Positions 5,284-55,744 of a DNA stretch of 64,000 nt are shown here, piece by piece. The translations under genes were made by a program, and so were the position numbers. The notes under the pieces are model-generated. The model had not been told where the DNA came from, searched no databases, and saw only the letters and a list, made by a program, of their open reading frames with translations. The stretch covers positions 372,001 to 436,000 of the forward strand of contig NZ_JHYS01000001.1 of the NCBI RefSeq assembly GCF_000688255.1, read 5' to 3'. The first letter of the stretch is position 1. Each line of letters opens with the position of its first letter. Source of the DNA: Simplicispira psychrophila DSM 11588. Lineage in GTDB: Bacteria > Pseudomonadota > Gammaproteobacteria > Burkholderiales > Burkholderiaceae_C.

Positions 5284-6258
5284 ATGGGTGAATTTGATCT
5301 GATTGCACGTTACTTCACGCGCCCAGTGCAGCGCGCTGCTCTGGGCGTGGGCGACGACTGCGCGCTGCTGGCACCTCAGCTTGGAATGCAACTGGCGGTA
5401 TCGAGCGACATGCTGGTCGAGGGACGGCATTTTTTTGCCGATACCGACGCCGAACGCCTGGGCCACAAGGCGCTGGCCGTGAACCTGTCCGATCTGGCCG
5501 CCTGCGGCGCGCGGCCGCTGGCGTTCACGCTGGCACTGGCCCTGCCGCACGTCGATGCGCTGTGGCTGGAGCCCTTTGCGCGCGGGCTACTGGCGCTGGC
5601 CGATGCGCACGGCTGCGAGCTGGTCGGCGGCGACACCACGCAAGGGCCCCTGAATATCTGTATCACCGTGTTCGGCGAAGTGCCGCCCGGCCAAGCCCTG
5701 CTGCGCAGTGGCGCGCGCGTCGGTGACGACCTCTATGTCAGCGGCACGCTCGGTGATGCGCGCCTGGCGCTGGAAGCCTTGCAAGGGCACATCACGCTGG
5801 CACCAGACACCCTGGCCGCCGCACGCCTGCGTCTGGAAGCACCGACACCGCGCGTCGCCCTGGGCCTGGCGCTGCGCGGCGTGGCACACAGCGCGATGGA
5901 TATCAGCGACGGCCTGCTCGGTGACCTCGGCCACCTGCTGCGCGCCTCGGGCGTGGGGGCCTGTATCGACACCTCCAAAACTATTAATTTAATAGCTGCA
6001 GGCGCATATCCTATAAGCGCTATAGGCCAATTTGACACCGAATTGCTGCAGCAGTGCACGCTGGCCGGTGGCGACGACTACGAACTGCTCTTCACCGCTG
6101 CGCCACAGCAGCGCAGTGCCGTGGCCGCTGCCGCACGGACCAGCGCCACGCCCGTGACGTGCATCGGCCGCATTGAAGCGGCGCCCGGGCTGCGACTGAT
6201 CGATGCGCAGGGTCGGGCGGTAACGCAGCGCTACGCCTCGTTCGACCATTTCGCCTGA
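5284..6258 (+). CDS. thiL: Thiamine-monophosphate kinase ThiL
   Basis: ThiL phosphorylates thiamine monophosphate to thiamine diphosphate using ATP, the last step of thiamine cofactor synthesis. The 324-residue protein starts MGEFDLIARYF, has GVGDDCAL near residue 20, SSDMLVEGRHF, the Mg-binding ELVGGDTTQG, MDISDGLLGDLGHLL and AGGDDYELLF, all hallmarks of the PurM/ThiL fold. The frame is open further upstream, but ATG 5284 gives the usual family length. Residues 235-251 are encoded by a copy of the 50-bp dispersed element described below. They fall where other ThiL proteins have a variable loop before AGGDDYE, so the enzyme is probably functional. Confidence 0.93.
   Translation: MGEFDLIARYFTRPVQRAALGVGDDCALLAPQLGMQLAVSSDMLVEGRHFFADTDAERLGHKALAVNLSDLAACGARPLAFTLALALPHVDALWLEPFARGLLALADAHGCELVGGDTTQGPLNICITVFGEVPPGQALLRSGARVGDDLYVSGTLGDARLALEALQGHITLAPDTLAAARLRLEAPTPRVALGLALRGVAHSAMDISDGLLGDLGHLLRASGVGACIDTSKTINLIAAGAYPISAIGQFDTELLQQCTLAGGDDYELLFTAAPQQRSAVAAAARTSATPVTCIGRIEAAPGLRLIDAQGRAVTQRYASFDHFA
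5986..6035 (+). repeat. 50-bp dispersed palindromic element, copy inside thiL
   Basis: The segment begins AATTTAATAGCT, carries GGCGC and AAGCGCT as imperfect inverted halves, and ends GGCCAATTTGA. It is visibly more AT-rich than the gene around it. It is read as NLIAAGAYPISAIGQFD in ThiL. A hand alignment to the cca copy (28237-28286) matches 35 of 50 positions without gaps, and to the pncC copy (10213-10262) 34 of 50. Confidence 0.8.
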
Positions 6259-6383
6259 CACGGGCCGCTGCGCCCGGCACGCCTGTGCAGAACGTGCGCA
6301 CAAACAAGAACAGATTCTCTGCGGCATTCTCACTAGCATGGTCTGCAAGAACGTGTTCACGCCACCACCGCAGGACTGACACC

Positions 6384-8165: not shown

Positions 8166-8192
8166 CCCCCTGTCCTTCCCACCGGAGTTGCC

Positions 8193-9598: not shown

Positions 9599-9647
9599 CC
9601 GACCAGGGACGACACGGCGCGCGCCAGCACCTCCTAGAATTCGCGCC

Positions 9648-10196: not shown

Positions 10197-11848
10197 CGCC
10201 GCCCTCACCCTCAAAAAATGAGCTGTCAGCGCTTATTCCACAAGGGCTTGAGGCCGATTTGACTCAAATTTCAGCGCGGCTGCTGGCGCACGGCTGGATG
10301 CTGACCACCGCCGAAAGCTGCACCGGTGGCCTGATCGCCGCGGCCTGCACCGAACGGGCCGGCTCCAGCCAATGGTTTGAGCGCGGCTGGGTCAGCTACT
10401 CCAACGCCGCCAAGACCGAGCTGCTGGGGGTGCCGGCGGCACTGATCGACGCACACGGCGCCGTCAGCGAGCCGGTAGTCCGCGCCATGGCCGAAGGCGC
10501 GCTGGCCCACGCCCACGCCCAGGTCAGCCTCGCCGTCACCGGCATCGCTGGCCCCACGGGTGGCAGCGCCGACAAACCCGTCGGCACGGTGTGGTTTGGC
10601 TGGTGCGTCGCCGGGCAAACCCACAGCCAAGTGCTGCACTTTGCCGGCGACCGCACCGCCGTGCGGCGCGCCACGCTGCACCACGCGCTGGCGCAGCTGA
10701 CCGGGTGGCTGGTACAACAACCACCCGCAGCCAAAACCCGGGGCCAAAGCACCCCAGCGACCCAGACCCCAACGCAGACCCCAACGCAGATCCTGACCCA
10801 TACGCTAGAGCATCTGAAAGAGCAGAACCAGACGCTGCAACGGCTGCTGGAAGAACACATCCGGACGCTGGAGAAAAAAGAAACCCTGTACCGCCAGCTG
10901 ACCGAAGACGCAGAGGACGTACTGTGGCAAACCAACAGCCAACTGCGCATCACCTACATCAGCCCGGCCGACGAACGTCTGCGCGGCTTCAAGGCCGAAG
11001 AGGTGCTGGGAAAGCACATTTTCGAGATTTTTACCGACGAGGGCATTGCTATCGTCCAGGAAAAAATTCAAGCCCGCGCGCTGGCAGAAGCGAGCGGTAC
11101 CACCACCCTTTCTTCGATATTTGAAGTGCAGCACCGCTGCAAGGACGGGCGACTGATATGGGGCGAAGTAGTAGCCAAGCCGGACCGCGACGCACAAGGC
11201 ACCATCATCGGCTACCACGGCATCACCCGAGAAACGACGCAGCGCAAATTGCTGCAGGACCAGGTGCATGACCTGGCGTTCTACGACCCCCTGACCCAAC
11301 TGGCCAACCGCCGCCTGCTGATCGACCATCTCACCCAAGCCCTGCTGTCCTGCCAGCGCCAGCGCAGCCAGGGCGCCCTGCTGTTTCTGGATTTGGACAA
11401 CTTCAAATCCCTCAACGACGCGCACGGCCATGGCGCCGGCGACCTGCTGCTGATCGAAGTGGCGCAGCGTTTGAAAACCTGCGTGCGCGCCATCGACACC
11501 GTGGCCCGTTTTGGCGGTGATGAATTTGTGGTGTTGCTGGGCGTCCTCAGCAACGAAGCCAGCGAGGCCGCCACGCAAGCTGGCGCCATTGCCGAAAAAA
11601 TACGCGCCAGCCTGGCACAGCCCTACCAGATCAGCATCACCCCCGCCCACCAGCAGCCGCCCACGACGGTAGAGCACCGGTGCTCGGCCAGCATTGGCCT
11701 GGTGCTGTTTGACGGCAACGACACCGTCCCCAACCAGATCATTGACCAAGCCGATGCCGCTATGTACCAGGCCAAAAAAGACGGCCGTAACCGCGTCTGC
11801 GTCCATAGCACCGGCGCTGGGACAACCGAGACGAAACACGGCCGGTAG
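10193..11848 (+). CDS. PncC (CinA C-terminal amidase) domain fused to PAS and GGDEF diguanylate cyclase
   Basis: A single uninterrupted frame encodes 551 residues. Residues 18-165 form a CinA-C/PncC domain (TTAESCTGGLIAA, GAVSEPVVRAMAEGA, VTGIAGPTGG, KPVGTVWFG), which in the family deamidates nicotinamide mononucleotide. A Pro/Thr/Gln linker with TPTQTPTQ repeats (about 185-200) leads into a coiled coil (about 205-240) and a PAS sensor domain (about 245-370). The GGDEF domain follows, with intact GGDEF at 441-445 and an RxxD product-inhibition site at 432-435, so it should make cyclic di-GMP. The gene starts at GTG overlapping the pgpA stop. Residues 7-24 come from a dispersed 50-bp element. 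PncC is normally a stand-alone protein or fused to a molybdopterin-like domain. Confidence 0.88.
   Translation: MTPPSPSKNELSALIPQGLEADLTQISARLLAHGWMLTTAESCTGGLIAAACTERAGSSQWFERGWVSYSNAAKTELLGVPAALIDAHGAVSEPVVRAMAEGALAHAHAQVSLAVTGIAGPTGGSADKPVGTVWFGWCVAGQTHSQVLHFAGDRTAVRRATLHHALAQLTGWLVQQPPAAKTRGQSTPATQTPTQTPTQILTHTLEHLKEQNQTLQRLLEEHIRTLEKKETLYRQLTEDAEDVLWQTNSQLRITYISPADERLRGFKAEEVLGKHIFEIFTDEGIAIVQEKIQARALAEASGTTTLSSIFEVQHRCKDGRLIWGEVVAKPDRDAQGTIIGYHGITRETTQRKLLQDQVHDLAFYDPLTQLANRRLLIDHLTQALLSCQRQRSQGALLFLDLDNFKSLNDAHGHGAGDLLLIEVAQRLKTCVRAIDTVARFGGDEFVVLLGVLSNEASEAATQAGAIAEKIRASLAQPYQISITPAHQQPPTTVEHRCSASIGLVLFDGNDTVPNQIIDQADAAMYQAKKDGRNRVCVHSTGAGTTETKHGR
10213..10262 (+). repeat. 50-bp dispersed palindromic element, copy at the 5' end of pncC-GGDEF
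   Basis: The segment runs from an A6 stretch through GAGCTG, CAGCGCTTATTCC and ACAAGGGCTTGAGGCC to GATTTGA, the same layout and length as the thiL and cca copies. It lies 20 bases inside the coding region and is translated between the GTG start and the conserved domain. Confidence 0.75.
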
Positions 11849-11876
11849 ACGCTGTCGAACTTGGGCCGCGCCAGCC

Positions 11877-13364: not shown

Positions 13365-13373
13365 AAAACGACA

Positions 13374-13391: not shown

Positions 13392-13404
13392 GGAGAAAAA
13401 ACGG

Positions 13405-13454
13405 TCAAATCAGCCTCAAACGCCCGCACAGCAAGCGCTGATAGCTATCAAAAC
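13405..13454 (-). repeat. 50-bp dispersed palindromic element, intergenic copy
   Basis: Read on the minus strand it runs GTTTTGATAGCTATCAGCGC, TTGCTGTGCGGGCG, TTTGAGGCTGATTTGA, matching the 50-position register of the other copies (ATAG at 7-10, GCGC at 17-20, ATTTGA at the end). It lies between the SulP and UPF0149 genes. Confidence 0.8.
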
Positions 13455-13468
13455 AGAAATATCGACGT

Positions 13469-14549: not shown

Positions 14550-15380
14550 ATGATCCTGATGCCCCCCACCGCACCCGTGTTCGCCTACGCATCCGACTAC
14601 GCCGCCTTTCTGCGCCAGCACTTGGCACAGCAGCCGTCCAACGTGGCCAGTTATCCATGGAAGGGGGAACAGCTGTGGCTGAAAAAAGCCGGCCCGCGCC
14701 ATGGCATGTGGCGCTACCACCTGCTGGGCACGCTGGCGCGCCTGGCACGTCTGCCGGTGCTGCGCCCGGTGCCCAACCGGGGCGGCGCCCAGGCCATTGC
14801 CACCGAGGCGCGGCGCCTGCACGACCTGGCCGCGCGCGGCCTGCGCGTGCCCGCCGTGCTGGCGCTGCAGTCCGAAGGATTGCTGCTGCGCCACCTGGGC
14901 GTGCCCGGCCAGCCCACGCCGTCGCTGGCGCAAGAGATCAGGTCGGCAGTGCCGCACGGCAGCGCACCGGTGCTGGCGCTGTGGGCACAAGGCCTGCAGG
15001 CACTGCAGCATGTCCACGCCACCGGCACCAGTTTGAGCCAGGCTTTTGCACGCAATCTGGTGCGCTGTCCGGATGGCGTGGTCGGCTATATCGATTTTGA
15101 AGACGACCCGACACGCACCCTGCCGCTGGTGCATTGCCAGGCGCGTGATGTCCTGTGCTATGTGCATTCAACGGCGCTGTATTTGCAGGACAGCGGCGCC
15201 ACCGAAGGCGCCCGCACCGTGCTGGCCGACTGGCGGGTGCAGTGCAGCCCGGGCCTGCAAAGCACACTGACCGACAGCATCGCCCGCCTGGACTGGGTGC
15301 GCCACCTGCCCGCCTCACGCCGCCTGGGACGCGACCTGCAACGCGCCCGGGCCGCCTACGATGTGCTGCAGCGGTGCTGA
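14550..15380 (+). CDS. Kinase-fold protein, possible lipopolysaccharide kinase-like phosphotransferase
   Basis: The 276-residue product has features of small eukaryotic-like or BUD32/Kdo kinase folds. A Lys appears in WLKKAGPRHGMWRY, an Arg/Glu-rich helix in AIATEARRLHDLAARGLRVPAVLAL, a hinge-like segment after LLLRHLG, and GVVGYIDFEDDP where kinases have the metal-binding DFG. The usual HxD catalytic loop is not obvious: SLSQAFARNLVRCPDG lies at that place. I therefore call it a kinase-fold protein without naming a substrate. It is convergent with the YgjP-like gene, with a dispersed element between them. Confidence 0.5.
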   Translation: MILMPPTAPVFAYASDYAAFLRQHLAQQPSNVASYPWKGEQLWLKKAGPRHGMWRYHLLGTLARLARLPVLRPVPNRGGAQAIATEARRLHDLAARGLRVPAVLALQSEGLLLRHLGVPGQPTPSLAQEIRSAVPHGSAPVLALWAQGLQALQHVHATGTSLSQAFARNLVRCPDGVVGYIDFEDDPTRTLPLVHCQARDVLCYVHSTALYLQDSGATEGARTVLADWRVQCSPGLQSTLTDSIARLDWVRHLPASRRLGRDLQRARAAYDVLQRC

Positions 15381-15383
15381 GGG

Positions 15384-15433
15384 TCAAATCAGCCGCAAAC
15401 GCTTGCTGCGTTTGCGCTTCAAGCTATTAAATG
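15384..15433 (-). repeat. 50-bp dispersed palindromic element, intergenic copy with strong hairpin
   Basis: On the minus strand it reads CATTTAATAGCTTGAAGCGC, AAACGCAGCAAGCGTTTGCG, GCTGATTTGA, exactly 50 positions in the common register. The inner arms GCAAACGC and GCGTTTGC pair perfectly, so it may also stop transcription between the two convergent genes. Confidence 0.8.
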
Positions 15434-15440
15434 AGTATTT

Positions 15441-20656: not shown

Positions 20657-21000
20657 GGCTTTTTCAGGACACGCGCCAGGCCAATCCTGGGCGGACAGTA
20701 AAGGAGCGCGCAGCGCGCGCAAAAAGAGATTTTAAGGGGCACCTGCGGCGAGAGATTCTGGGGACAAGGGCAGCGCCCACAAATCAAAATTAATAGCTAG
20801 CACCGCACGCATCTAAACACTTTTAATCACTAAATCATCTAAAACCCTTTAAATACGTGCGGTAGTAGCTCACTTTTTAATATAGCTAGAGCACTCTGTC
20901 GGGTTACGCCCTTTGGGCTAACCCGACCTACGAATAAAGCCTGCAGCACCGCGCATCCCTAAAATGCCCACCACCCCAGCCACACCCCACGGAGCACCGC
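20657..21000. other. Gene-free spacer between glyQ and the SPFH gene, filled with repeats
   Basis: No coding frame is convincing here. From 20787 to about 20880 it is AT-rich and holds two partial, oppositely oriented relatives of the 50-bp dispersed element: TTAATAGCTAGCACCGCACG near 20790, and its inverted partner ending GTGCGGTAGTAGCT near 20870. At 20897-20932 lies a copy of a different palindromic repeat. Promoters for both divergent genes must be here, but I see no unambiguous -35/-10 pair. Confidence 0.6.
20897..20932. repeat. Palindromic GTCGGGTTA/TAACCCGAC repeat, copy A
   Basis: Thirty-six bases run TGTCGGGTTACGCCC, TTT, GGGCTAACCCGACCTACG, an imperfect hairpin. It is identical in sequence to copy C at 22185-22220. 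Repeats of this type are scattered in many proteobacterial genomes, often after or between genes. Confidence 0.85.
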
Positions 21001-27951: not shown

Positions 27952-29214
27952 ATGAAAATTTACATGGTCGGCGGCGCGGTGCGTGACCGCTTGTTAGGGC
28001 GGGAGGTCAGTGACCGCGATTGGGTGGTGGTGGGCGCGACGCCAGAGCAAATGGTGGCGCAGGGCTATCTGCCGGTGGGGCGGGATTTTCCGGTGTTTTT
28101 GCACCCAAAAACCCGCGAGGAATATGCGCTGGCGCGCACTGAGAGGAAGAGCGGGCGCGGCTATCGGGGCTTTGTGGTGCAGACCTCGCCCGAGGTGACA
28201 CTGGAAGAAGACTTGGCACGGCGCGACCTAACTATCAATTCGATAGCTACTAATGCACGTCCTAAAAGCGCTGCAGACTATTTTGACCCTTATCACGGCC
28301 AGCGCGATCTGGAAAAGCGCGTGCTGCGCCATGTCACCGACGCTTTCCGCGAAGACCCGGTACGCATCCTGCGTGTGGCGCGCTTTGCGGCGCGCTTGAC
28401 CGATTTTTCCGTGGCGCCTGAGACGCTGCAGCTGATGCGCGAGATGGTGGCGCACGGCGAGGCCGATCACTTGGTGGCTGAACGCGTCTGGCAAGAACTG
28501 GCGCGCGGGCTGATGGAGGAGCAACCGTCGCGGATGTTTGAGGTGCTGCGCGCTTGCGGTGCGCTGGCGGTGGTGCTGCCCGAGGTGAACCGCCTGTGGG
28601 GCGTGCCGCAGCGTGCGGACCACCACCCCGAAATTGATACCGGCATCCACCTGATGATGGTGCTGGACATGGCCGCGCACCTGAAGGCGCCGCTGACGGT
28701 GCGCTTTGCTTGTCTGGTACACGACTTGGGCAAAGCCACCACGCCGGCGCATGTGCTGCCGCGCCACTTGGGCCACGAGGAGCGCAGCGCCCAGTTGCTC
28801 AAGGGGCTGGCCGCACGCCTGCGCGTGCCGCTGGACTGCCGCGAAATTGCCGATGTGGTGGCGCGAGAGCACGGCAATATCCACCGCAGCGCCGAACTGG
28901 ACGCGGCCGCGCTGGTGCGGCTGATTGAGCGCTGCGACGGCATCCGCAAGCCCGAGCGTTTTGCTGAAATTTTGCTGGCCTGCGAGTGCGATGCACGTGG
29001 GCGCTTGGGGCGGCAAGCATCCGCCTACCCCCAGCGCCAGCGGCTGCGGGAAGCGCTGGTGGCGCTGCAAGCGGTTGCTACGGCAACCATAGCGGCTAGC
29101 GCAGCAGCAGCGGGCGTTACCGGGCCAAAAGTGGGTGAAATGATCCACGCCGCACGGGTCAAGGCGGTGGCGGCTTGGTTGGCCTCTGCAGCCACGCCAA
29201 CACCCGCCGCCTGA
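27952..29214 (+). CDS. cca: Multifunctional CCA-adding enzyme (tRNA nucleotidyltransferase, HD domain)
   Basis: Cca adds or repairs the 3'-CCA end of tRNAs. The 420-residue protein has the class II nucleotidyltransferase start [28 protein letters not shown] with GG and DxD-type catalytic acids. [12 protein letters not shown] and LRVARFAAR follow, and a C-terminal HD phosphohydrolase domain contains [10 protein letters not shown] and EHGNIHRS. Residues 96-112 ([17 protein letters not shown]) are encoded by a 50-bp dispersed element placed where homologues have a short loop ending in IDPYGGQRDL. The enzyme core is otherwise intact. Confidence 0.94.
28237..28286 (+). repeat. 50-bp dispersed palindromic element, copy inside cca
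   Basis: It runs AATTCGATAGCTACTAATGC, ACGTCCTAAAAGCGCTGCAG, ACTATTTTGA. It is in the same codon phase as the thiL copy, so both encode the pattern N-x-I-A-x-x-A-x-P-x-S-A-x-x-x-F-D. Confidence 0.8.
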
Positions 29215-30531: not shown

Positions 30532-31991
30532 GGCTTGGGCAGCTTGGCAGGGCGCGTCCAGTTCGTCAGATGGACCTGTTTGCCGCGCGCCACGCCCAGC
30601 GCGCCCGCTGGCACGGCTTTGGTGACGGTCGAGCCGCCGCCCACAGTCGCACCAGCGCCAATGGTGATCGGCGCCACCAGCACGCAGTTGCTGCCAATGT
30701 GCACATCGGCCTCGATCACGGTACGGTGCTTGTTGGCGCCGTCGTAGTTGGCGGTGATGCTGCCGGCGCCGTAGTTGACGCGCTCGCCCACCGTGGCGTC
30801 GCCCAGATAGGCCAGGTGGTTGGCCTTGGCGCCATCGGCCAGGGTGGAATTTTTGACTTCGACAAAGTTGCCGATGTGTACCGCGCGGCCCAGCTGCGCG
30901 CCGGGGCGCAGGCGGGCGAACGGCCCGATCAGCGCACCCTCGCCCACCGCCACGCCGGCTTGCTCGCCATCGATGTGGGTGTAGGGGTGAATCACCGCAC
31001 CCGCCGCAATCACCGCATTGGCAATGCAGCAGTGCGCGCCAATCTGCACGCCCTCGCCCAGTTCCACGCGGCCGGTGAAAATGCAGCCGACGTCGATTTC
31101 CACGTCCTGCCCGCAAACCAATGCGCCGCGCACACCGGTTCGTGGGTCGTCGCGCAGGTCAAAACGCGCCGGATCGGCCAAGCGCACGCCCTGCTCCATC
31201 AGCGCATGCGCCTGGCGCAGTTGGTAGGCACGCTCCAGCTCGGCCAGTTGCACCGGGCTGTTGACGCCGGCGACCTGCAACGCGTCACTGATGCGGTGCG
31301 CCAGCACTGGCACGCCATCCGCCACGGCCAGGGCGACGATGTCGGTCAGGTAATACTCGCCCTGGGCGTTGTGATTGGTCAAGCGGCCCAGCCACGGCGC
31401 CAGCAGGCGCGCCGGTACGGCCAGGATGCCGCTGTAGACCTCGGTGATGGCGCGCTGGGCCTCGCTGGCGTCCTTGTGCTCGACGATGGCCTGCACCGCA
31501 CCCGCGGCGTTGCGCACGATGCGGCCATAGCCGGTCGGGTCGGGCAGCGTCACCGTCAGTAGCGCCAGCGCGCCGTCGTATACGTCATCGATCACGCCTT
31601 CCGAGGCAGCAATCAGCGCACGCAGCGTGTCCGGCTGGGTCAGCGGCACATCGCCCGACAGCACCACCACCGTGCCATCGGTACGCAACTGCGGCAGCGC
31701 CTGCTGCACGGCGTGGCCGGTGCCCAACTGCGGCTCCTGGCGAACAAATGCCAATTCAAATTCAGGGTTAAAAGTAGCACTAACGCTTGCTGCACCTGCG
31801 GTAGCAGCTTCTACTTCCATAGCACCATGGCCAGTGATGACGATGGCGCTGCGCGCCTGCAAATGCGCCGCCTGGTCCAGTACATGCTGCAGCAGCGGCC
31901 GCCCGGCCAGACGCTGCAAAACTTTGGGCAAACGGCTTTTCATGCGCGTGCCTTTGCCGGCGGCCATGATGAGGATGTCGAGTGGTGTCAT
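30528..31991 (-). CDS. glmU: Bifunctional UDP-GlcNAc pyrophosphorylase / glucosamine-1-phosphate N-acetyltransferase
   Basis: GlmU acetylates glucosamine-1-phosphate and then transfers UMP to make UDP-GlcNAc for peptidoglycan and LPS. The protein has 487 residues, about 30 more than E. coli GlmU. It shows the uridylyltransferase signature LDILIMAAGKGTRMKSRLPKVL, VLSGDVPL, EYYLTDI, a left-handed beta-helix of hexapeptide repeats, and the catalytic EVKNSTLADGAKANHLAYLGD. Part of the extra length (about residues 59-75, AATAGAASVSATFNPEF) coincides with a derivative of the 50-bp dispersed element. ATG 31991 was taken; its stop overlaps the kinase start. Confidence 0.95.
   Translation of the reverse strand: MTPLDILIMAAGKGTRMKSRLPKVLQRLAGRPLLQHVLDQAAHLQARSAIVITGHGAMEVEAATAGAASVSATFNPEFELAFVRQEPQLGTGHAVQQALPQLRTDGTVVVLSGDVPLTQPDTLRALIAASEGVIDDVYDGALALLTVTLPDPTGYGRIVRNAAGAVQAIVEHKDASEAQRAITEVYSGILAVPARLLAPWLGRLTNHNAQGEYYLTDIVALAVADGVPVLAHRISDALQVAGVNSPVQLAELERAYQLRQAHALMEQGVRLADPARFDLRDDPRTGVRGALVCGQDVEIDVGCIFTGRVELGEGVQIGAHCCIANAVIAAGAVIHPYTHIDGEQAGVAVGEGALIGPFARLRPGAQLGRAVHIGNFVEVKNSTLADGAKANHLAYLGDATVGERVNYGAGSITANYDGANKHRTVIEADVHIGSNCVLVAPITIGAGATVGGGSTVTKAVPAGALGVARGKQVHLTNWTRPAKLPKP
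31768..31816 (+). repeat. Derivative of the 50-bp dispersed element inside glmU
   Basis: It contains AAAGTAGCACTAACGCTTGC, TGCACCTGCGGTAGCAGC, close to the intergenic copies' TTGCTGCACAAGCG core but one base shorter before the CGCTTGC. It is oriented against the glmU reading direction. Because of the indel and divergence it is the least certain of the listed copies. Confidence 0.5.
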
Positions 31992-33400: not shown

Positions 33401-33434
33401 ATAACACGCGCTTTGGCGCCAGCGCCTGCCAGCT

Positions 33435-33484
33435 AAAACCCTAGCTGCTGGCGCTTGCTGCACAAGCGTTGCAGCCAAATTCGC
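33435..33484 (+). repeat. 50-bp dispersed palindromic element, intergenic copy
   Basis: It reads AAAACCCTAGCTGCTGGCGC, TTGCTGCACAAGCGTTGCAG, CCAAATTCGC. Immediately upstream (33420-33434) is AGCGCCTGCCAGCTA, an inverted partial copy of its first half, so the site can form a longer hairpin. It lies between the convergent BLUF and tyrS genes. Confidence 0.75.
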
Positions 33485-36296: not shown

Positions 36297-37418
36297 ATGT
36301 CTGAGCTGTACATCGGCCTGATGTCGGGCACTTCGCTCGACGGTGTGGACGGCGTTTTGGTTGATTTTTCAGACTCAAAATGCCTTGTAAGGCAGCACTG
36401 GTCAGCACCACTAGCTACCGAATTAAGAGCGGAGCTGCTGGCCTTGAATACCGCTGGTGCCGATGAGTTGCACCGCGCCGCGCTCGCTGCCAATGCCCTG
36501 GTGCGCACCTATGCCGACACCGTACAGGCGCTGCTGGCAGACAGCGGCGTGGTCGCCAGCGCCGTGCGCGCCATCGGTGCCCACGGCCAGACGGTGCGCC
36601 ACCGCCCGCAGGCCTTTGATGGCACCGGCTACACCCTGCAGCTGAACAACCCGGCGCTGCTGGCAGAACTGACTGGCATCACCGTGGTGGCCGATTTTCG
36701 CAGCCGCGACGTCGCCGCAGGCGGGCAGGGCGCGCCGCTGGTGCCCGCCTTTCACCAACATGTCTTTGCCCAGCCGCAGGCCACGATGCTGGTGCTGAAT
36801 ATCGGCGGTATTTCCAACCTGAGCGTGCTAGGCGCTAAAGACGATGCTCAGGGCCAAGTGCTGGGCTTTGACTGCGGGCCGGGCAACGCGCTGATGGACT
36901 ACTGGTGCCAGCGCCACACCGGCCAACCATTTGACCGGGACGGCGCCTGGGCGGCCACTGGCACGCTGTTGCCGGCCTTGCTGGCGCAGTGCCTGGCCGA
37001 ACCTTATTTGCACCAGCCACCGCCCAAGAGCACCGGCCGCGACTTGTTCAATCCGCACTGGCTGCACGCGCAACTCGATACGCACGGCAATGCGGCGCCG
37101 CAAGACATACAGGCCACATTGACCGAATTGACCGCTAGCGCTTGTGCCAGCAGCGTAAGCAGCTATGGAAAAAAGAGTAAAAATCTAGCCGTCTGCGGCG
37201 GTGGCGCCTTCAATCAGCATTTGATGCACCGCCTGCAAGCCTTGCTGCCCACAGTGGCAGTACAACCGTCTGATGCCTATGGCCTACCCGCGCAACAGGT
37301 CGAGGCGGCGGCCTTTGCCTGGCTGGCACGGCAAACGCTGTGTGGCGCCCCCGGCAACTTGCAAAGCGTCACGGGCGCCCAAGGTGCCCGTGTGTTGGGG
37401 GCGATCTACCCCGCGTGA
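36297..37418 (+). CDS. anmK: Anhydro-N-acetylmuramic acid kinase
   Basis: AnmK phosphorylates and opens 1,6-anhydro-MurNAc from cell-wall recycling to MurNAc-6-phosphate. The 373-residue protein shows YIGLMSGTSLDGVDGVLVDF, GAHGQTVRHRP, VADFRSRDVAAGGQGAPLVPAFH, LNIGGISNLSV and VCGGGAFN, the ASKHA-fold signatures. Two copies of the 50-bp dispersed element lie within it, after the N-terminal motif (residues 27-43) and near residue 280, where protein sequence (SKCLVRQHWSAPLATEL; TASACASSVSSYGKK) departs from the usual family pattern. The position behind an M23 endopeptidase fits a shared muropeptide theme. Confidence 0.94.
   Translation: MSELYIGLMSGTSLDGVDGVLVDFSDSKCLVRQHWSAPLATELRAELLALNTAGADELHRAALAANALVRTYADTVQALLADSGVVASAVRAIGAHGQTVRHRPQAFDGTGYTLQLNNPALLAELTGITVVADFRSRDVAAGGQGAPLVPAFHQHVFAQPQATMLVLNIGGISNLSVLGAKDDAQGQVLGFDCGPGNALMDYWCQRHTGQPFDRDGAWAATGTLLPALLAQCLAEPYLHQPPPKSTGRDLFNPHWLHAQLDTHGNAAPQDIQATLTELTASACASSVSSYGKKSKNLAVCGGGAFNQHLMHRLQALLPTVAVQPSDAYGLPAQQVEAAAFAWLARQTLCGAPGNLQSVTGAQGARVLGAIYPA
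36375..36424 (-). repeat. 50-bp dispersed palindromic element, first copy in anmK
   Basis: Read on the minus strand it is AATTCGGTAGCTAGTGGTGC, TGACCAGTGCTGCCTTACAA, GGCATTTTGA, starting and ending like the cca copy but with a divergent centre. It is inserted in the opposite direction to the gene, which keeps an open frame through it. Confidence 0.65.
37123..37172 (-). repeat. 50-bp dispersed palindromic element, second copy in anmK
   Basis: On the minus strand it reads TTTTCCATAGCTGCTTACGC, TGCTGGCACAAGCGCTAGCG, GTCAATTCGG. ATAGCTGCTTACGC and ACAAGCGCTAGCGG closely match the intergenic copies. It is oriented against anmK and remains translatable. Confidence 0.75.
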
Positions 37419-43575: not shown

Positions 43576-43580
43576 AACGG

Positions 43581-44480: not shown

Positions 44481-45475
44481 GCACTTCTCCTGGCAAAAAC
44501 AAAAAACTCCCGGTTGCCGTCGCCACCGCTGATGGCGCTGTCCAGCCACGCCAGCACTTCCAAGCCTTGCTCGGCGCAGCAGTCGCGGATGCGTTTTTCG
44601 ACCACTGCGTACAGCGCCCCATCGCGCACGATGCCACCCTTGCCAACCTGGCCGGGCTGCAGCTCAAACTGTGGCTTGACCAGCATCAACAGCCGGCCTT
44701 CAGGCGCCAGCAGCGGCACCAGCGCTGGCAGCACCAGCGTCAGCGAGATGAACGACAAATCGCCCACTACCACGTCAAACAAGGGCGTGGTGTTGATGTC
44801 GGCACATTCAGCGCGGCGGCGGCGCTCGACCGGCAGCGTGCCCGCGGCGCGTGCCTTGGCCTTGGCGGCGCGCTCCAGCCGAAAATTCTCGATGTCCTTG
44901 TCTTTGGCGTCGTCGCTGTCGTCGTATTCCTCATCCACCAAGCCGCCATTGCGCATCCAGCTGTAGGGCGCTTCGGGCTGGGTTTCGTTGTCTTCAACTT
45001 CCTCGATGATTTCCGACAGCACCAGCTCGCAGTCCTGCTGCAAAGCGCCCGGCGTGATCGCGCGCGCGTTCACGCCTTCGACGCACACCACGCGCGCATC
45101 ACTGCGCAGGCGCTCGTGCAACTGGCCGTGGCCGACATCGACGCCAATCACCTGCGCTGCGCCGTGCTGCAGCAGGCAATCGGTAAAGCCGCCGGTGCTC
45201 TGGCCGACATCCAAGCAGCGCAACCCGGTCACGTTGAGTTGGGCTGCCGCCAGCGCGCCTTCCAGCTTCAAGCCGCCGCGCGACAGATATTTGGCCTCAG
45301 CGCCGTCCAGCAAGCGCACTTCGGCAATCGCCGGGATGTCATCGCCGTTCTTCACTACCTTCTGCCACGGCGAACTGGCCGACAGGCGCCACTCGACTCC
45401 GGCGGCAATCAACCGCTGCGCCTGCGAGCGCGTGGCCGCATGGCCAAAATCCACCAGAAAAACGTCGGCGCGCAT
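44477..45475 (-). CDS. tlyA: TlyA family rRNA methyltransferase/S4-domain protein with acidic insertion
   Basis: The N-terminal 65 residues form an S4 RNA-binding domain (MRADVFLVDFGHAATRSQAQRLIAAG), followed by a FtsJ-like methyltransferase with GLRCLDVGQSTGGFTDCLL and a second half VVVGDLSFISLTLVLPAL, KPQFEL, VGKGGIVRD. TlyA 2'-O-methylates rRNA, or in other lineages is called a haemolysin. The protein has 332 residues, about 70-80 more than usual: residues 153-231 form a highly charged insertion (EEVEDNE..., DEEYDDSDDAKDKD, KAKARA) between the two halves of the methyltransferase. It overlaps metF by ATGA. Confidence 0.9.
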   Translation of the reverse strand: MRADVFLVDFGHAATRSQAQRLIAAGVEWRLSASSPWQKVVKNGDDIPAIAEVRLLDGAEAKYLSRGGLKLEGALAAAQLNVTGLRCLDVGQSTGGFTDCLLQHGAAQVIGVDVGHGQLHERLRSDARVVCVEGVNARAITPGALQQDCELVLSEIIEEVEDNETQPEAPYSWMRNGGLVDEEYDDSDDAKDKDIENFRLERAAKAKARAAGTLPVERRRRAECADINTTPLFDVVVGDLSFISLTLVLPALVPLLAPEGRLLMLVKPQFELQPGQVGKGGIVRDGALYAVVEKRIRDCCAEQGLEVLAWLDSAISGGDGNREFFVFARRSA

Positions 45476-45510
45476 AGCTCATTTCCTCGTCAAAAGACGA
45501 TGTTTTATAG

Positions 45511-45560
45511 TCAAATCGGGCTACAGCCCTTTAAATACATGCGCTAATAGCTATTAAAAT
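45511..45560 (-). repeat. 50-bp dispersed palindromic element, copy between ahcY and tlyA
   Basis: On the minus strand it runs ATTTTAATAGCTATTAGCGC, ATGTATTTAAAGGGCTGTAG, CCCGATTTGA. Its first half is also half of a perfect 14-bp inverted repeat (CGCTAATAGCTATT at 45542-45555 and AATAGCTATTAGCG at 45561-45574), again a paired arrangement of element ends. Confidence 0.8.
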
Positions 45561-45598
45561 AATAGCTATTAGCGACTCAGCATCACCCCAGCGGGTGA

Positions 45599-47032
45599 TC
45601 AGTAACGGTAGGTTTCAGCCTTGTACGGGCCGTTCTTGCTCACGCCGATATAAGCGGCTTGTGCGTCGGTCAGCTCGGTCAGCATCGCGCCGACCTTCTT
45701 CAGGTGCAAACGTGCGACTTTTTCGTCCAGCGACTTGGGCAACACATACACCTTGCCGACTTGGTACTCGGTCGGCTTGGTGAACAGCTCAATTTGCGCA
45801 ATGGTTTGGTTGGCAAACGAGGCGCTCATGACAAAGCTCGGGTGGCCGGTGCCGCAGCCCAGGTTCACCAAACGGCCCTTGGCCAGCAAAATGATTTTTT
45901 TACCTTCAGGGAAGGTGATGTGGTCCACCTGCGGCTTGATTTCTTCCCACTGGTATTTCTCAATCGACGCCACGTCGATTTCGTTGTCAAAGTGGCCAAT
46001 GTTGCAGACGATGGCCTGGTCTTTCATGGCGGCCATGTGCTCGTGGCGAATGACGTCCTTGTTGCCGGTGGTGGTGACGAAAATGTCGGCCTTGTCGGCG
46101 GCGTACTCCATCGTGACGACTTTGTAGCCTTCCATGGCGGCTTGCAGCGCGTTGATCGGGTCGATTTCAGTCACCCAGACTTGGGCCGACAGCGCACGCA
46201 GCGCCTGTGCCGAGCCCTTGCCGACGTCGCCGTAACCCGCCACGCAAGCCACCTTGCCGGCAATCATCACGTCGGTAGCGCGCTTGATGCCGTCCACCAG
46301 CGACTCGCGGCAGCCGTACAGGTTGTCAAATTTGCTCTTGGTCACCGAGTCATTGACGTTGATGGCGCGGAACAGCAGCGTGCCCTTGGCGCTCATCTCG
46401 TTCAGGCGGTGCACACCGGTGGTGGTCTCTTCGGTCACACCGATGATCTCGGCCGACTTGCGCGTGTACCAGGCGGCATCCACTGCCAGCTTGGCGCGGA
46501 TGGCGGCAAACAAAATGGTTTCTTCTTCGCTGCTCGGCTTGTCCAGCACCGACTGATCCTTTTCAGCCTTTTGGCCCAGGTGCATCAGCATGGTGGCGTC
46601 GCCGCCGTCGTCCAAGATCATGTTGGGGCCTTCGCCGGGCGTGCCGGCAGCGCCAAACTCAAAAATGCGGTGGGTGTAATCCCAGTAGTCCGACAACGAC
46701 TCGCCCTTAATGGCAAACACCGGCGTGCCGTTGGCGGCAATCGCGGCAGCGGCGTGGTCTTGGGTGCTGAAAATGTTGCACGAGGCCCAGCGCACTTGGG
46801 CGCCGAGTGCTTCCAGCGTCTCGATCAGCACGGCGGTCTGGATCGTCATGTGCAACGAGCCGGTGACGCGCGCGCCTTTGAGCGGTTGGGCGGCAGCGAA
46901 TTCTTCGCGGATGGCCATCAGACCGGGCATTTCGGTCTCGGCAATGCGAATTTCCTTGCGGCCCCAAGCGGCCAGGGAAATATCGGTGATGGCGCAGTCG
47001 GTGGGCAGGGGCAGGGGAGTGCGGACGTTCAT
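45599..47032 (-). CDS. ahcY: S-adenosylhomocysteinase
   Basis: AhcY hydrolyses S-adenosylhomocysteine to adenosine and homocysteine and closes the methyl cycle. The 477-residue protein has [57 protein letters not shown], the NAD-binding [22 protein letters not shown], and ends PYKAETYRY with the conserved Lys and Tyr. GGAG precedes ATG 47032 at a suitable distance. The SAH riboswitch upstream provides direct substrate-level control of this gene and its downstream partners. Confidence 0.97.
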
Positions 47033-47062: not shown

Positions 47063-47113
47063 CCACTTGGCGCGCCATAAGCCATAAAACCCAGCCCATC
47101 GCACGCCAAGTGG
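47063..47113 (-). other. Hairpin between the SAH aptamer and ahcY, possible expression platform
   Basis: CCACTTGGCG (47063-47072) and CGCCAAGTGG (47104-47113) pair perfectly over ten bases around a 31-base loop. The outer end touches the 3' edge of the aptamer, and the ahcY ribosome site lies about 20 bases further on, so it could switch with the aptamer P1 stem. This coupling is inferred from position. Confidence 0.5.
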
Positions 47114-47200
47114 ATGAGCGTCGTTGCAGAGCGGGACAAGCCCGGCCTCCCGAGCCTCACGTCCGCTGTGTTAGCGGGACGCTGCAACGCTCCTCAGGAG
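47113..47200 (-). promoter_or_regulatory. S-adenosylhomocysteine riboswitch aptamer
   Basis: On the minus strand the segment carries the family's conserved blocks in order: GAGGAGCGTTGCAGCG, a hairpin (GTCCCGCTAACACAGCGGAC), GAGGCTCGG, and TGCAACGACGCTCA, whose halves pair (GAGCGTTGCA with TGCAACGACGCTC). This is the architecture of the SAH riboswitch known upstream of ahcY and metF in beta- and gammaproteobacteria, where binding of SAH turns expression on. Confidence 0.9.
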
Positions 47201-47209
47201 AAAGGGGCG

Positions 47210-50206: not shown

Positions 50207-50215
50207 CGCGGGCTT

Positions 50216-52943: not shown

Positions 52944-53377
52944 TGAAAGCTGATTGGCTACCCGCCTTGCTGCGTTTTGGTCTGGTTGGCATCGTCGGCT
53001 TATTGGTCGATCTGGCGGTGCTTTACGTGGCCGCGCCGGGCTTGGGCTGGTACGGTGCCCGGGTCTTGTCCTTTTGGGCGGCCGCTACAGCGACTTGGTG
53101 GTTGAATCGGCACTACACCTTTGCCAGCGCTAAGGCCAGCGTTGCGCAATCGTCCCTCTCGGTGGGTCGGCAATATCTGCGCTACTTGCTCTCTATGACC
53201 TTGGGCGGGAGCGTGAACTACCTGACATACGCTACGGTCATCGCTTGGGTGGTGCTGCCGGCAGCACCGGCGATCGGGGTGGCTTTGGGCAGCTGCGCTG
53301 GATTGGCTTTCAATTTTGTTGCGGCAAGGTATTTTATTTTTCGCCACGCTGCGGAAAACCCAGAGGCACCTTCTTGA
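52943..53377 (+). CDS. gtrA: GtrA family flippase-like membrane protein
   Basis: GtrA proteins move undecaprenyl-linked sugars across the inner membrane. The 144-residue protein has four membrane helices and the conserved features: LRFGLVGIVGLLVDLAVLY at the N-terminus, WWLNRHYTFAS after TM2, and NFVAARYFIFR at the C-terminus. Its position after a GtrB-like transferase and a GT-C enzyme supports the assignment. Confidence 0.88.
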   Translation: MKADWLPALLRFGLVGIVGLLVDLAVLYVAAPGLGWYGARVLSFWAAATATWWLNRHYTFASAKASVAQSSLSVGRQYLRYLLSMTLGGSVNYLTYATVIAWVVLPAAPAIGVALGSCAGLAFNFVAARYFIFRHAAENPEAPS

Positions 53378-53474
53378 CGTGAAGCCTCTCGGCAGTCGTC
53401 CATTAGTCTCTGCCTGCTCCTTTTACAGAATGCTGCACGTTTAGCGTTGGTGGCATTCGACACCAATATTCGCC

Positions 53475-55334
53475 ATGCTACGCTCCCGATTTTTGCCCTA
53501 TTTGTTCACACTGTTGCTTTGTCCCCTGACAGTGGCAGCGCAAACTGTGCCAGTTTCAGCGCAGCCACAGCGCACGCCTTTTCTGATCGCTCCCACCGTC
53601 GAAGGTGTGCTGCTCTGTGATGAGGCGGTGGCAGATTTACAGATTGCGTCGATGAATGCCGCTCTCGCTTTGTGCCGGCAGCACAAAAGCAACGGTGCTG
53701 CTGCCCTCACCCGTTTACTCGACACACTGGAGCCGGGTGGCCCGCAGGGGCAAGTGCAGGTGGGTTACACCCTGAACGTGCAATTGCTCAGTTTGTACCG
53801 CAAGCCGGGCAAGCCCAGTAAAGATTGGCAGATGGATACGGAACAGGTGGATGCGCTGCTAGACCTCATCACCAAGGTGTCGCGTCCGGTGGTGTTGTAT
53901 TTGGCGGCCGATCACTTCGACTCGATGGGGCCTATCGTGGAAGAGTTGCGCCACGATCCGGCCAACTTGATGCAGTTGCGTGATGGTAAACCGCTGGAGC
54001 TGGGGTATTTTGGCTACCGCATCATGCCGTGGACGATGCAGACCGACCTGGCCATTCCCGTCAACCACTACCGCGTGCTGGCGCTTCAATACCTTGCACA
54101 GCGCATCCAGGCGCTCCCCAAACCAGTGCAAAGCCGCATTGCTGCCATCACCTTGGCAGGCGAGTTGCACCATATGTACCCTGATTTTGAGAACGGCATG
54201 GGCCGCTACCAAGACATTCAGGTGACAGACTACAGCGCGGCCTCGGTGGCGGGGTTTCGCCAATGGTTGCAGCAGCAATACAAGGGTATTGCTGATTTAA
54301 ATGCGCAAATGGGCTTCTCTTATGTCTCGTTTGATGCAGTGCCGGCACCGTCGAAAGATATTCGCAAAGAAAAATTGGCAGGATTTGCTGAACACTACGA
54401 CGCTTTTGCTGATGGCACTTTACCGCTGGCGGGCTGGCTTTGGGACCCGCAAGGCGCTATTAAGCAGCTGGATTTGTACGTTGATGGCCAGCGCGTAGGC
54501 GCGGTGCCGCGTGGCTTGAATCGGCTGGATGTGTACCGCGCCGAAGCCTCCATCCTGAGTCCTAACGTCGGTTATCGCTACGACTTTGACTACAGCACCT
54601 TGCCACCTGGCCGCCATAAGGCGCAAATCGTGGCTGAGACTAGCAAGGTGCGCCGCCATGGGCTGGCCGAGGTTGAGTTTGTCGTGGTGGCGCGCGACCA
54701 AAGCAGCGCTGCTGGCAGATCGCCTGCTTCTGTGCCGTCGCTAAAGAATGCCAAGGCCCTGCCAGGCGTGCGTTCTTGGCTTGACCTGCCCCGCACCGGG
54801 CAAGATTTGTACTTCAACCCGTTAGCGCGCGATTGGAACCGTTACCGCAACTACCAGGTGCAACAGTACTTGGCAGTGTTCCACCAAGTCGCCGTGCGAG
54901 CAGGCTTGCCAGCTGACAAACTCTATTCACACCAAATCGTGCCGCGCGCCAACTCCAGCTGGAACCACCAACTGTTTGCTGCCGACGGCACCATCGGCGG
55001 CTATACCCCGTGGAAGCAGGGTCTCAATATGTACGGCGGCAGCACCGACAGCGACTGGGTGCGTAGCTACTTGGCCAAGGAAGGCATCACCGATTACGGC
55101 GTGCCGGAATTTCATCCGCAGCAATGGAAAACTCCCGGTGTCCACTTGGCTGCGCTGCAATCGCACTACCGAGGTGGCGCACGTTTTATCAGTCCCTATT
55201 ATTTTTCGCTGATCCCGGAGCGCTTCAAGAGCACTTCTGAGCATGGCGTTAATCGCATGGAATTACGTCCAAACAACCCCAAGGACGGCTCCAGTCAGCT
55301 CTACCAGGCCATTCAGACCTTCGCCCGGCAATAG
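53475..55334 (+). CDS. Secreted glycoside-hydrolase-like protein (GH42-type TIM barrel)
   Basis: The 619-residue protein has a signal peptide (FLPYLFTLLLCPLTVAAQ). LAGELHHMYPD followed by TDYSAASVAGFRQWLQQQYKGIADLNAQMGFS is the arrangement around the acid/base Glu of GH42-like barrels, where a FRxWL...LN segment follows a NE-type motif. A Glu in ITDYGVPEFHPQQ could be the nucleophile. A beta-rich domain (about residues 315-420) interrupts the barrel. I infer that it acts on surface glycan made by the adjacent gtr cassette; the exact activity is unknown. It has its own short spacer (97 bases) from gtrA. Confidence 0.55.
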   Translation: MLRSRFLPYLFTLLLCPLTVAAQTVPVSAQPQRTPFLIAPTVEGVLLCDEAVADLQIASMNAALALCRQHKSNGAAALTRLLDTLEPGGPQGQVQVGYTLNVQLLSLYRKPGKPSKDWQMDTEQVDALLDLITKVSRPVVLYLAADHFDSMGPIVEELRHDPANLMQLRDGKPLELGYFGYRIMPWTMQTDLAIPVNHYRVLALQYLAQRIQALPKPVQSRIAAITLAGELHHMYPDFENGMGRYQDIQVTDYSAASVAGFRQWLQQQYKGIADLNAQMGFSYVSFDAVPAPSKDIRKEKLAGFAEHYDAFADGTLPLAGWLWDPQGAIKQLDLYVDGQRVGAVPRGLNRLDVYRAEASILSPNVGYRYDFDYSTLPPGRHKAQIVAETSKVRRHGLAEVEFVVVARDQSSAAGRSPASVPSLKNAKALPGVRSWLDLPRTGQDLYFNPLARDWNRYRNYQVQQYLAVFHQVAVRAGLPADKLYSHQIVPRANSSWNHQLFAADGTIGGYTPWKQGLNMYGGSTDSDWVRSYLAKEGITDYGVPEFHPQQWKTPGVHLAALQSHYRGGARFISPYYFSLIPERFKSTSEHGVNRMELRPNNPKDGSSQLYQAIQTFARQ

Positions 55335-55744
55335 GAGCGTGCACCGCTCCCTCCATGGCGGGGTTCTCAAACGACGCCCGGCATTCTTACTCAATAGGTA
55401 ATGGGCACTGACATACCCTCTCCCGAGTCACTTCTCCCCCAGCTGTACACCTCCCTGCCTAATCAGTCCCACGCAGGCGGCATCCTCACCACGGACGGAG
55501 CCATCACCCCAGATGCGCTGCGGGCAAGACAGGCGCAGTGAGCAGCCTCTACATCAGCGGCTGGTTTGGTACGCACCACCAGCTCGAAGGTGCGCGATGA
55601 CTCCAGGGTCAGGCGCTTTTTCCGTAGCAAATCGGTAAAAAATACCTTGATAATTTTTAAGAAAAACAGGGCTGTAACGCATATACAGCAAGCGCTAAAA
55701 GCTATCAATAAAGAAGCGAAAATTTCCACGAAGTAGGCAGTCCC
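55335..55744. other. Gene-free spacer between the GH-like gene and the SCO-locus membrane gene
   Basis: Both flanking genes point into this 410-base spacer, so it should hold terminators rather than promoters, but I see no classic stem with a T-run. A copy of the 50-bp element lies at 55662-55711. A minus-strand open frame (55463-55729) exists, but its N-terminal part is encoded by that element. Confidence 0.55.
55662..55711 (-). repeat. 50-bp dispersed palindromic element, intergenic copy
   Basis: On the minus strand it reads TTATTGATAGCTTTTAGCGC, TTGCTGTATATGCGTTACAG, CCCTGTTTTT. The first 40 positions fit the family register; the end has drifted. Confidence 0.75.

Follow-up and report, generated by a model that had tools for sequence, protein, structure and literature searches.

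The window, the whole stretch of 64,000 nucleotides analysed here, carries copies of a dispersed repeat of about 66 bp that we tentatively interpret, at a probability of about 0.4, as a sequence-specific recognition site kept by a trans-acting system and most like DNA uptake sequences (DUS, USS). All ten copies listed in an earlier note on this DNA, and the copy it placed in glmU, were present in the sequence and aligned without gaps (Table 1). A covariance model trained on these eleven copies recovered every one at E 8.7e-8 or better, and also a weaker copy at 20823-20884 (E 0.0039). The copy placed at 36375 was detected less evenly, as it reached 47.1 bits with the covariance model trained on it and was found by the motif matrix but was missed by nhmmer models. 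Partial inverted relatives had also been proposed at 20787-20880; this region holds the weaker copy and, judged by eye, an adjoining inverted partial copy. Using nhmmer, we found 72-76 motif loci in 446 kb of this contig, and the profile search gave a clear excess over shuffled sequence (72 loci, compared with a best score of 11.0 bits in five Markov shuffles of the same 446 kb). The same motif was absent from 607 kb of sequence from five relatives without it. With a model built from the window copies, at least 150 loci were found across this 3.6 Mb genome.

The repeat had been described as a fixed-length, 50-bp palindromic element scattered between and inside genes. Its dispersal and near-fixed length were borne out, but conservation extends from about -8 to +60 in the earlier note's register, giving a unit of about 66 bp and not 50 bp. 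The palindrome likewise holds in part: a dyad (AGCGCTT...AAGCGCT) is present within a roughly two-fold symmetric conserved stretch flanked on both sides by A/T boxes, but the dyad arms showed no covariation in this genome. In other genomes, 17-35 (z 3.7) was the one core pair among eight to covary. A structured RNA or hairpin kept by pairing is therefore unsupported in this genome. A search of the whole window against Rfam at gathering thresholds returned only a SAH riboswitch, at 47109-47201, and no family at the motif copies. The consensus ends, in which we looked for MITE-type terminal inverted repeats, differ from each other. The foot of the motif is ATAGCT, with A9, G10 and C11 present in 72 of 72 loci, and a de novo pair search ranked CGCTT(N)7AAGCG first on contig 1. 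Intergenic copies have about 40% G+C, and some spacer copies examined by eye have stems that are well paired yet spelled differently.

Table 1. Copies of the repeat in the window, with positions counted from its first letter
Position	Strand	Location	Score (bits)	Matrix score (bits)	Remarks
5979..6044	+	inside thiL, sense	52.3 (nhmmer)	71.6	
10207..10271	+	spacer upstream of pncC(CinA)-GGDEF	50.2		probably non-coding
13403..13456	-	intergenic	36.1		
15378..15439	-	fills convergent-gene spacer	43.7		adjoining gene ends at most 2 bp away
about 20787-20830		adjoins the 20840..20882 copy			second partial copy, inverted; by eye
20840..20882	-	intergenic	22.9		weaker copy; E 0.0039
28229..28293	+	inside cca, sense	40.2	54.5	
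31759..31809	-	inside glmU, sense	25.9	36.9	
33433..33483	+	convergent-gene spacer	31.9		
36369..36430	-	in anmK near 5' end, antisense		26.2	weak copy
37119..37179	-	in anmK near 3' end, antisense	28.2	32.1	
45503..45568	-	spacer before FtsJ-like methyltransferase gene	48.7		
55654..55718	-	convergent-gene spacer	37.1		

Placement of the copies was strongly uneven across genomic contexts. With genes called by a crude home-made dicodon script (which called the anmK start 147 bp late), 18 of 76 copies lay inside genes, on either strand, compared with about 82% of random positions. Convergent spacers were occupied in 20 of 33 cases and divergent spacers in 4 of 46, and copies in tandem spacers showed no orientation preference (17 versus 17). 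Spacing along contig 1 was more even than random (CV 0.76 versus 0.98, p 0.007). In the complete genome G004, the best 150 copies were spread around the whole chromosome, with spacing that was only suggestive (p 0.06). Strand bias relative to replication was only weak among these 150 best copies (60 versus 90, p 0.018).

Judged by comparison with orthologous sequences, the coding copies add no peptide to their host proteins. Relative to motif-free orthologues from the same genus (G002 and G005), the net difference ranged from -3 to +4 amino acids and was zero in 43 of 49 comparisons. These took in 33 copies from 9 gene sites at identity above 50%, and leave out one row at 27% identity and all other-genus rows. 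The thiL copy and the anmK 3' copy each showed 0 net amino acids against both relatives. Against three other genera the thiL copy was associated with +6 to +8 amino acids, and a weak coding copy in G004 with +7 and +10 against other genera. Among other-family proteins at the anmK 3' site, seven of nine aligned ungapped over the stretch and two differed by one or two residues. Coding segments were thus conserved in orthologues without the element (anmK 3', thiL, glmU, dapF and others), an outcome that the earlier note had itself named as refuting its reading. Four of the five copies previously assigned to coding genes, in thiL, cca and twice in anmK, stand as such; the copy assigned to pncC-GGDEF is probably untranslated, since it precedes the predicted start (window 10298) and lies almost entirely ahead of the CinA domain, which begins at residue 25 of the longest ORF, at about 10265. 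Intragenic copies on contig 1 have 18 host genes. Of these, 14 were run against Pfam and ten looked like housekeeping enzymes, putatively MurG, DapF, an RNB nuclease, AroE, Pgi, CobS, ThiL, Cca, GlmU and AnmK (names inferred from Pfam labels).

In motif-bearing species, silent positions within the coding copies retain the motif. Using a consensus of 67 contig-1 copies, coding ones included, we found that 221 of 340 four-fold sites in motif-bearing relatives matched the motif, compared with 49.5 expected, and shifted controls reached at most 1.6-fold; in motif-free relatives, 23 of 118 sites matched, compared with 20.7 expected. These counts come from 39 gene comparisons, of which glmU and anmK supply 34. 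With the same consensus and with common descent controlled, motif A/T bases at four-fold sites were kept in motif-bearing species at 121 of 160 positions versus 208 of 1251 in the rest of the five genes examined, and in motif-free species at 2 of 24 versus 44 of 240 elsewhere. Related species enter the P values as if they were independent, so we take the effect size, and not the P value, as the evidence. Together with the nearly constant protein length, the retention of motif bases at silent sites suggests that the DNA motif itself is maintained.

The motif is confined to one bacterial family among the genomes searched, and within that family it is patchy. It was found in 45 of 160 family genomes, a survey in which at most the best 33 copies per genome were scored, and in none of 24 genomes from other families of the order, in a survey scoring at most the best 89 copies per genome. 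A family-wide DNA search was dominated by one conserved gene, with 187 genomes unscored, and its loci are left out of the results. Where the motif occurs, orthologous sites are often shared. One convergent spacer carries it in 10 of 11 genomes, the cca copy is present in all three other motif-bearing relatives fetched, and the orthologous glmU site exceeded 16 bits in every one of the 16 other motif-bearing genomes scored, compared with -25.3 in motif-free G002. Coding-site scores are the best of a few offsets, from a matrix of 52 copies not wholly inside genes, and the background is of single positions, with a maximum of -5.0 bits over 59,895 such positions of a motif-free relative. Gains of the motif look abrupt from the anmK 5' site scores, where ten genomes fall at 22 to 41 bits, eleven below -27 and none in between. 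The motif is absent from the same-genus relatives G002 and G005, which we infer to be loss from its presence in other genera, not from a genus tree. A second 'dialect' of the motif in G002 was also considered and rejected, as a de novo search of 364 kb of that genome yielded no comparable motif (best z 8.0 versus 37.6).

If the repeat is a recognition site, one trans factor would read it, and copies may spread and persist either because uptake and recombination favour motif-bearing DNA (drive) or because the cell benefits from the site. New coding copies would come from substitution in place or from short replacement recombination, and would last only in proteins that can accept them. The even spacing on contig 1, the many housekeeping host genes and the lack of a comparable motif in G002 favour this reading, whereas the small share of copies inside genes, the longer stretches relative to other genera (thiL and the weak G004 copy) and the spacing in G004 weigh against it. 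Like the gains at the anmK 5' site, new copies of the Neisseria DUS are described as arising where no near-match stood (PMC2397512). DUS and USS, as characterized in PMC2397512 and PMC2346458, resemble the motif in copy number (hundreds or more), in occupying both strands and both genic and intergenic sites, in their core-genome conservation and in the disputed terminator role of inverted pairs. The coding copies described here are also DUS-like in being preserved as DNA with no insertion. Unlike DUS and USS, which are about 10-12 bp, the motif spans about 66 bp with a dyad and lies mostly between genes. A longer, extended USS exists in Pasteurellaceae; we know of no uptake sequence that approaches 66 bp. 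This genome has the competence genes ComEC and DprA, as do motif-free G002, G005, G026, G030 and G032, so they fail to separate the two groups, and loss of these genes does not account for motif absence. For ComEC there was no match in G007 and G033, both incomplete.

Several observations favour the main rival reading, a small REP/REPIN-type or MITE-type mobile element, which we consider rather unlikely as the overall explanation. Such an element, mobilized by a transposase of the Y1 (RAYT-like) or another kind, would insert mainly in spacers, and its coding copies would be rare tolerated events that were adjusted later. Hundreds of copies biased to spacers, and to convergent over divergent ones, fit this pattern. 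Spacers are also longer where the motif is present: for 12 of 16 spacer copies the spacer exceeded that of motif-free same-genus relatives by 25 to 165 bp, although seven of the 12 represent one orthologous spacer. The count covers G002 and G005 and differences below 300 bp; it omits a site where two genomes gave -482 and -469 bp, as well as other-genus rows at +68 to -937 bp. Exact core matches occurred in 8 viral contigs, with phage-type neighbours in four of five tested, and one phage copy lies in a spacer longer than those of its relatives, in a comparison where relatives were too few for two of three queries. The extra DNA at spacer copies and the longer phage spacer look like insertion and so speak against a recognition site; the phage copies are hard to reconcile with slow drive. 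Against mobility, the coding genes show no net insertion relative to same-genus relatives, and anmK hardly any relative to other families. We saw no target duplication by eye in two spacers (13 and 10 genomes), where relatives are too divergent for exact junctions. Copies are also less alike within one genome (56% identity) than orthologous copies are between species (72%), and the missing covariation of the dyad arms in this genome counts against mobility as well.

A link to the Y1 transposase was examined and, save perhaps for a faint one, rejected. In this genome, a copy overlaps one end of the Y1 gene (HFH, Y-x-x-x-NP) and another lies 56 bp from the other end, and when very weak matches of 6 to 14 bits are included a copy stands at the Y1 gene in 8 of 16 loci of motif-bearing genomes versus 0 of 5 in motif-free genomes. 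Strong copies (above 20 bits) occur at the Y1 gene in 4 of 16 loci, and genes overall have one within 60 bp about as often (81 of 373). Motif-free G002, G005, G026 and G032 carry the Y1 gene too, and there was no Y1 match in motif-bearing G003 (99% complete). The motif resembles the REP/REPIN-RAYT systems described in PMC6006769 in copy number, palindrome, gene-end location and the presence of a Y1 gene in most family genomes. It differs in its ATAGCT foot with no GT[AG]G or CGTC tag, in its coding copies with no insertion, in dyad arms that do not covary in this genome and in showing no dependence on Y1, although some REP subclasses in that account also have no GT[AG]G.

A chromosome-organizing or transcription-end site seems to us less probable still. 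Here a nucleoid protein, topoisomerase or termination factor would bind the motif as a symmetric footprint, and selection would have put it chiefly at gene ends. The near two-fold symmetry with A/T boxes on both sides, the strong preference for convergent spacers, the distribution around the whole G004 chromosome and the conservation at orthologous places are all consistent with such a role. Tandem spacers with no orientation, the copies within genes on both strands, and a consensus with no T-run directly after the dyad run counter to it, and also distinguish the motif from an intrinsic terminator, which would have an oriented hairpin and U-run. The replication strand bias is weak, and absence from same-genus G002 and G005 would be unexpected if the site were essential.

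Rickettsia palindromic elements are translated in frame within genes and add peptides, and the earlier note had likened the repeat to them; the two are alike in being palindromic and in having open frames that span several copies, but a peptide-adding insertion is very improbable here, as motif-free same-genus orthologues are nearly equal in length.

The core of the motif has been reported before. The earlier note knew of no name for the family, and our literature searches found no paper naming the whole 66-bp element, but PMC5217627 published the core in 2017 as an unexplained motif. That paper describes GCTTAT(N)5AAGCG in Acidovorax ebreus and ATAGCT(N)22CAAAAG in Polaromonas naphthalenivorans as potential novel motifs of single genomes. 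They number 114 and 125 copies; most are intergenic, often lying between convergent genes, and 5 and 18 are in genes. The most motif pairs were in Rhodoferax ferrireducens. The Acidovorax motif fits the core at positions 19-24 and 30-34 with the same spacing, the A of GCTTAT being the second commonest base at position 23 here. The Polaromonas motif shares ATAGCT only, with CAAAAG where this motif has CTAGAG. The parts of PMC5217627 considered here contain no 66-bp unit, family range, in-place coding copies, silent-site preservation or absence from relatives, and those of PMC2755013 concern CRISPR repeats only. The BRE of Bordetella, as described in PMC3110155, are 75-91 bp, 69% G+C and often tandem. 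Like the motif, they are repeated in Betaproteobacteria including Comamonadaceae, with some intragenic copies. By these descriptions the motif differs from them, with a length of about 66 bp, dispersed copies and an intergenic G+C content of about 40%.

These results bear on how such repeats are read in general. Short bacterial repeats are usually explained as inserting mobile DNA. Coding copies that do not lengthen proteins, and DNA kept at silent positions, point to a genome-wide DNA reader, and the contrast between motif-bearing G000 and its motif-free relatives G002 and G005 makes what was lost directly testable. The motif may, though this is not the likelier outcome, represent a new class of genomic mark: a 66-bp near-symmetric site that would write itself, by replacement and not by insertion, into hundreds of sites, conserved protein genes among them, be held at silent positions throughout a genus and disappear from whole lineages along with its reader. 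Such a mark might give Comamonadaceae their first uptake-like or genome-marking system, one longer than any other known. If the site instead organizes the chromosome, it would reveal a new nucleoid factor. As a mark for uptake or recombination, it would open the study of natural transformation and gene-flow barriers in a large environmental family.

Copies of the motif are numerous throughout the source genome. The eleven copies listed in an earlier note on the window, including that in glmU, align without gaps in one shared register, and R1, a covariance model derived from these copies, recovered all eleven plus one weaker copy. R1 gave at least 150 matches in the 3.6-Mb genome, all at E values of 4e-4 or better. 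Contig 1 (446 kb, including the window) contained 72 non-overlapping loci in an nhmmer search with a 47-column model and 76 with a 70-column model, and by extrapolation the genome holds approximately 600 copies. The excess over shuffled sequence was borne out, with five Markov shuffles peaking at 11.0 bits.

The same note described a fixed-length, 50-bp palindrome. The dyad is present in the core, but the length was too short, as the conserved stretch is approximately 66 bp. Its consensus is roughly CTATTAAATTgATAGCTnCTAGCGCTTGTnnATAAGCGCTAGAGGCCnATTTGACCCTAAATTT (72 loci, contig 1), with A9, G10, C11, and G19 invariant in 72 of 72 loci, and the footprint is roughly symmetric around position 26, with ends unlike each other. 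G+C was approximately 40% in copies between genes and 45% in copies inside genes, whereas spacers have 52% and coding DNA 63%. No covariation of dyad base pairs was found among copies of this genome. At one window spacer and its orthologues (Table), we observed by eye well-paired stems spelled differently between species (e.g., relatives G003, G004, G012, and G014), which contrasts with the little covariation in pooled statistics; the G012 copy there was missed by the model. Some copies form inverted, back-to-back pairs, giving a composite of ~100 bp.

Table. Positions of motif arrangements and other features (G000, source genome; G012, a relative; L numbers, contigs or loci)
Feature	Location	Strand	Remarks
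Inverted motif pair	G000 contig 1, 24624-24721		Centres 48 bp apart
Inverted motif pair	G000 contig 1, 55245-55348		Centres 53 bp apart
Inverted motif pair	Window, about 20787-20882		By eye
Spacer with paired stems	Window 45475-45599		Orthologues in L114, L117, L121, L123
Convergent spacer	L121:7145-7194		Orthologue in L114 (G012): no motif detected, ~558 bp instead (1 of 11 genomes)
SAH riboswitch	Window 47109-47201	-	Rfam RF01057, 53.6 bits; sole Rfam match in window at gathering thresholds
Motif copy adjoining phage-type gene	Viral contigs L376, L378, L380, L382		Rha regulator (twice), DUF3164, ERF annealing protein

Placement along contig 1 was uneven with respect to genes, which were called with a home-made procedure. 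Eighteen of 76 copies were inside genes (nine sense, nine antisense), compared with ~82% of random positions, while 50 were in spacers and eight lay across a gene end. Convergent spacers (those of at least 30 bp) were occupied in 20 of 33 cases, tandem spacers in 31 of 166, and divergent spacers in 4 of 46, with no orientation preference in tandem spacers (17 versus 17). One convergent spacer was motif-filled, in constant orientation, in 10 of 11 genomes. Host genes of 14 of the 18 intragenic copies were searched against Pfam, and ten resemble housekeeping enzymes. Spacing between copies was more even than random (CV 0.76 versus 0.98, p = 0.007). In the complete genome of a motif-bearing relative (G004), copies occur around the entire chromosome; its best 150 copies showed a slight strand bias (60 versus 90, p = 0.018) and perhaps more even spacing than random (p = 0.06).

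Contrary to the earlier proposal, coding copies add no peptide to their host proteins relative to same-genus orthologues. Compared with motif-free, same-genus orthologues aligned across the motif, net change ranged from -3 to +4 amino acids and was zero in 43 of 49 comparisons, which came from 33 copies at nine gene sites (two in anmK, two unnamed here, and one each in thiL, glmU, dapF, cobS, and a HAD-type gene) after exclusion of a single comparison at 27% identity. Since a 66-bp insertion would add 22 residues, we interpret these copies as not being insertions. At the anmK 3' site, seven of nine proteins from other families align ungapped, with a difference of one or two residues in the remaining two. 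Against more distant genera, thiL was six to eight residues longer (G026, G030, and G032), and the host stretch of a weak G004 copy was seven and ten residues longer. The cca gene was compared with motif-bearing relatives only.

Coding copies are instead preserved at silent sites. At motif sites located in the source genome, 221 of 340 four-fold silent positions matched the motif in other motif-bearing species, compared with an expectation of 49.5 based on the composition of each gene, although 34 of these 39 gene comparisons were glmU or anmK and genomes with a decayed anmK copy were included. Motif-free species matched at 23 of 118 sites (20.7 expected), and shifting the motif along genes gave at most 1.6-fold over expectation. 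As a control for common descent, we asked in five genes how often A/T-ending four-fold codons of the source genome retain their base. Motif-bearing species kept 121 of 160 where the base belonged to the motif versus 208 of 1,251 elsewhere, and motif-free species kept 2 of 24 versus 44 of 240. Scores at the anmK 5' site were 22 to 41 bits in ten genomes and below -27 in eleven (nine of them motif-bearing), with none intermediate. At the 3' site, 15 genomes scored 22 to 54, four scored -6 to -13, perhaps as decaying copies, and two motif-free genomes scored -35 and -45. Orthologous copies were 72% alike (241 pairs) versus 56% for copies within one genome (158 pairs), which indicates descent site by site without refreshing from a master copy. 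Silent-site preservation requires that some force acts on the DNA.

Presence of the motif varied among whole genomes. At least 75 matches each were found in 22 of 25 same-genus relatives, and G002, G005, and G007 had 0, 1, and 2. Five of ten genomes from other genera of the family had at least 22 matches, one had three, and four had none; the motif was found in 0 of 24 genomes of other families. A wider family draw gave at least one match in 45 of 160 genomes (42 of 141 genera). Titles among the exact core matches listed included Simplicispira, Acidovorax, Comamonas, Giesbergeria, Ramlibacter, Ottowia, Extensimonas, Paenacidovorax, Alicycliphilus, and Rhodoferax, as well as vaguely named metagenome-assembled genomes (e.g., 'Gammaproteobacteria bacterium'). 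In 607 kb from five motif-free relatives, G002, G005, G026, G030, and G032, there were no matches at E 1e-3, and 364 kb of G002 contained no alternative over-represented spaced motif of comparable strength.

The main rival explanation, which we consider rather unlikely, is a REP-like mobile element. Extra DNA often accompanies spacer copies: 12 of 16 were in spacers 25 to 165 bp longer than in motif-free, same-genus relatives, although seven of these are one orthologous spacer (6 of 10 by distinct spacers). Of the other four, two had spacers longer by 12 to 14 bp and two had spacers shorter by 3 and 11 bp. The count omits one further site, whose spacer in G002 is 586 bp. Exact core matches also occurred in eight viral contigs, with phage-type neighbours in four of five tested; L376 had additional weaker matches. 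In the contig bearing DUF3164, which we take to be Mu-like, the motif-bearing spacer upstream of that gene is 88 bases (counted by eye) compared with 6 to 47 in the nine of 12 relatives that read cleanly (three were misread, and the upstream gene varies). This finding speaks for movement that brings added DNA and counts against spread by favoured uptake and recombination alone. A Y1 transposase gene in the source genome has copies at both ends and, including very weak matches, the motif accompanies 8 of 16 Y1 loci versus none of the five in motif-free genomes. The spacer count and weak Y1 matches lean slightly toward a REP-like element. However, only four of the 16 Y1 loci carry strong copies, about the rate for genes generally (81 of 373). 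By eye, motif-free G002, G005, G026, and G032 have an intact Y1 gene, no Y1 match was found in motif-bearing G003, and coding copies lack net insertion. Separately, contigs C5, C16, and C22 of the source genome carry fragments matching Y1_Tnp, two of which begin at the first bases of the contig, so an insertion sequence of this kind may break the assembly. A chromosome-organising or transcription-end site seems less probable still.

Related motifs have been noted without explanation. In one source (PMC5217627), GCTTAT(N)5AAGCG of Acidovorax ebreus agrees with the core in position and spacing, and ATAGCT(N)22CAAAAG of Polaromonas naphthalenivorans agrees in ATAGCT only. In the mostly open-access literature covered, we found no published description of the full ~66-bp unit and its distribution or of in-place, silent-site-preserved coding copies.

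Overall, the pattern appears to fit uptake-sequence biology best, in which copies would spread or persist through favoured uptake and recombination of motif-bearing DNA. Like uptake sequences, the motif is dispersed on both strands within and between genes, persists over long periods at orthologous positions of core genes, and is gained without prior near-matches, as PMC2397512 describes for Neisseria. It differs in its length, its bias to spacers, and the proven uptake role of those sequences, and presence of ComEC and DprA does not track the motif. The whole-genome absences suggest a single reader that was lost.
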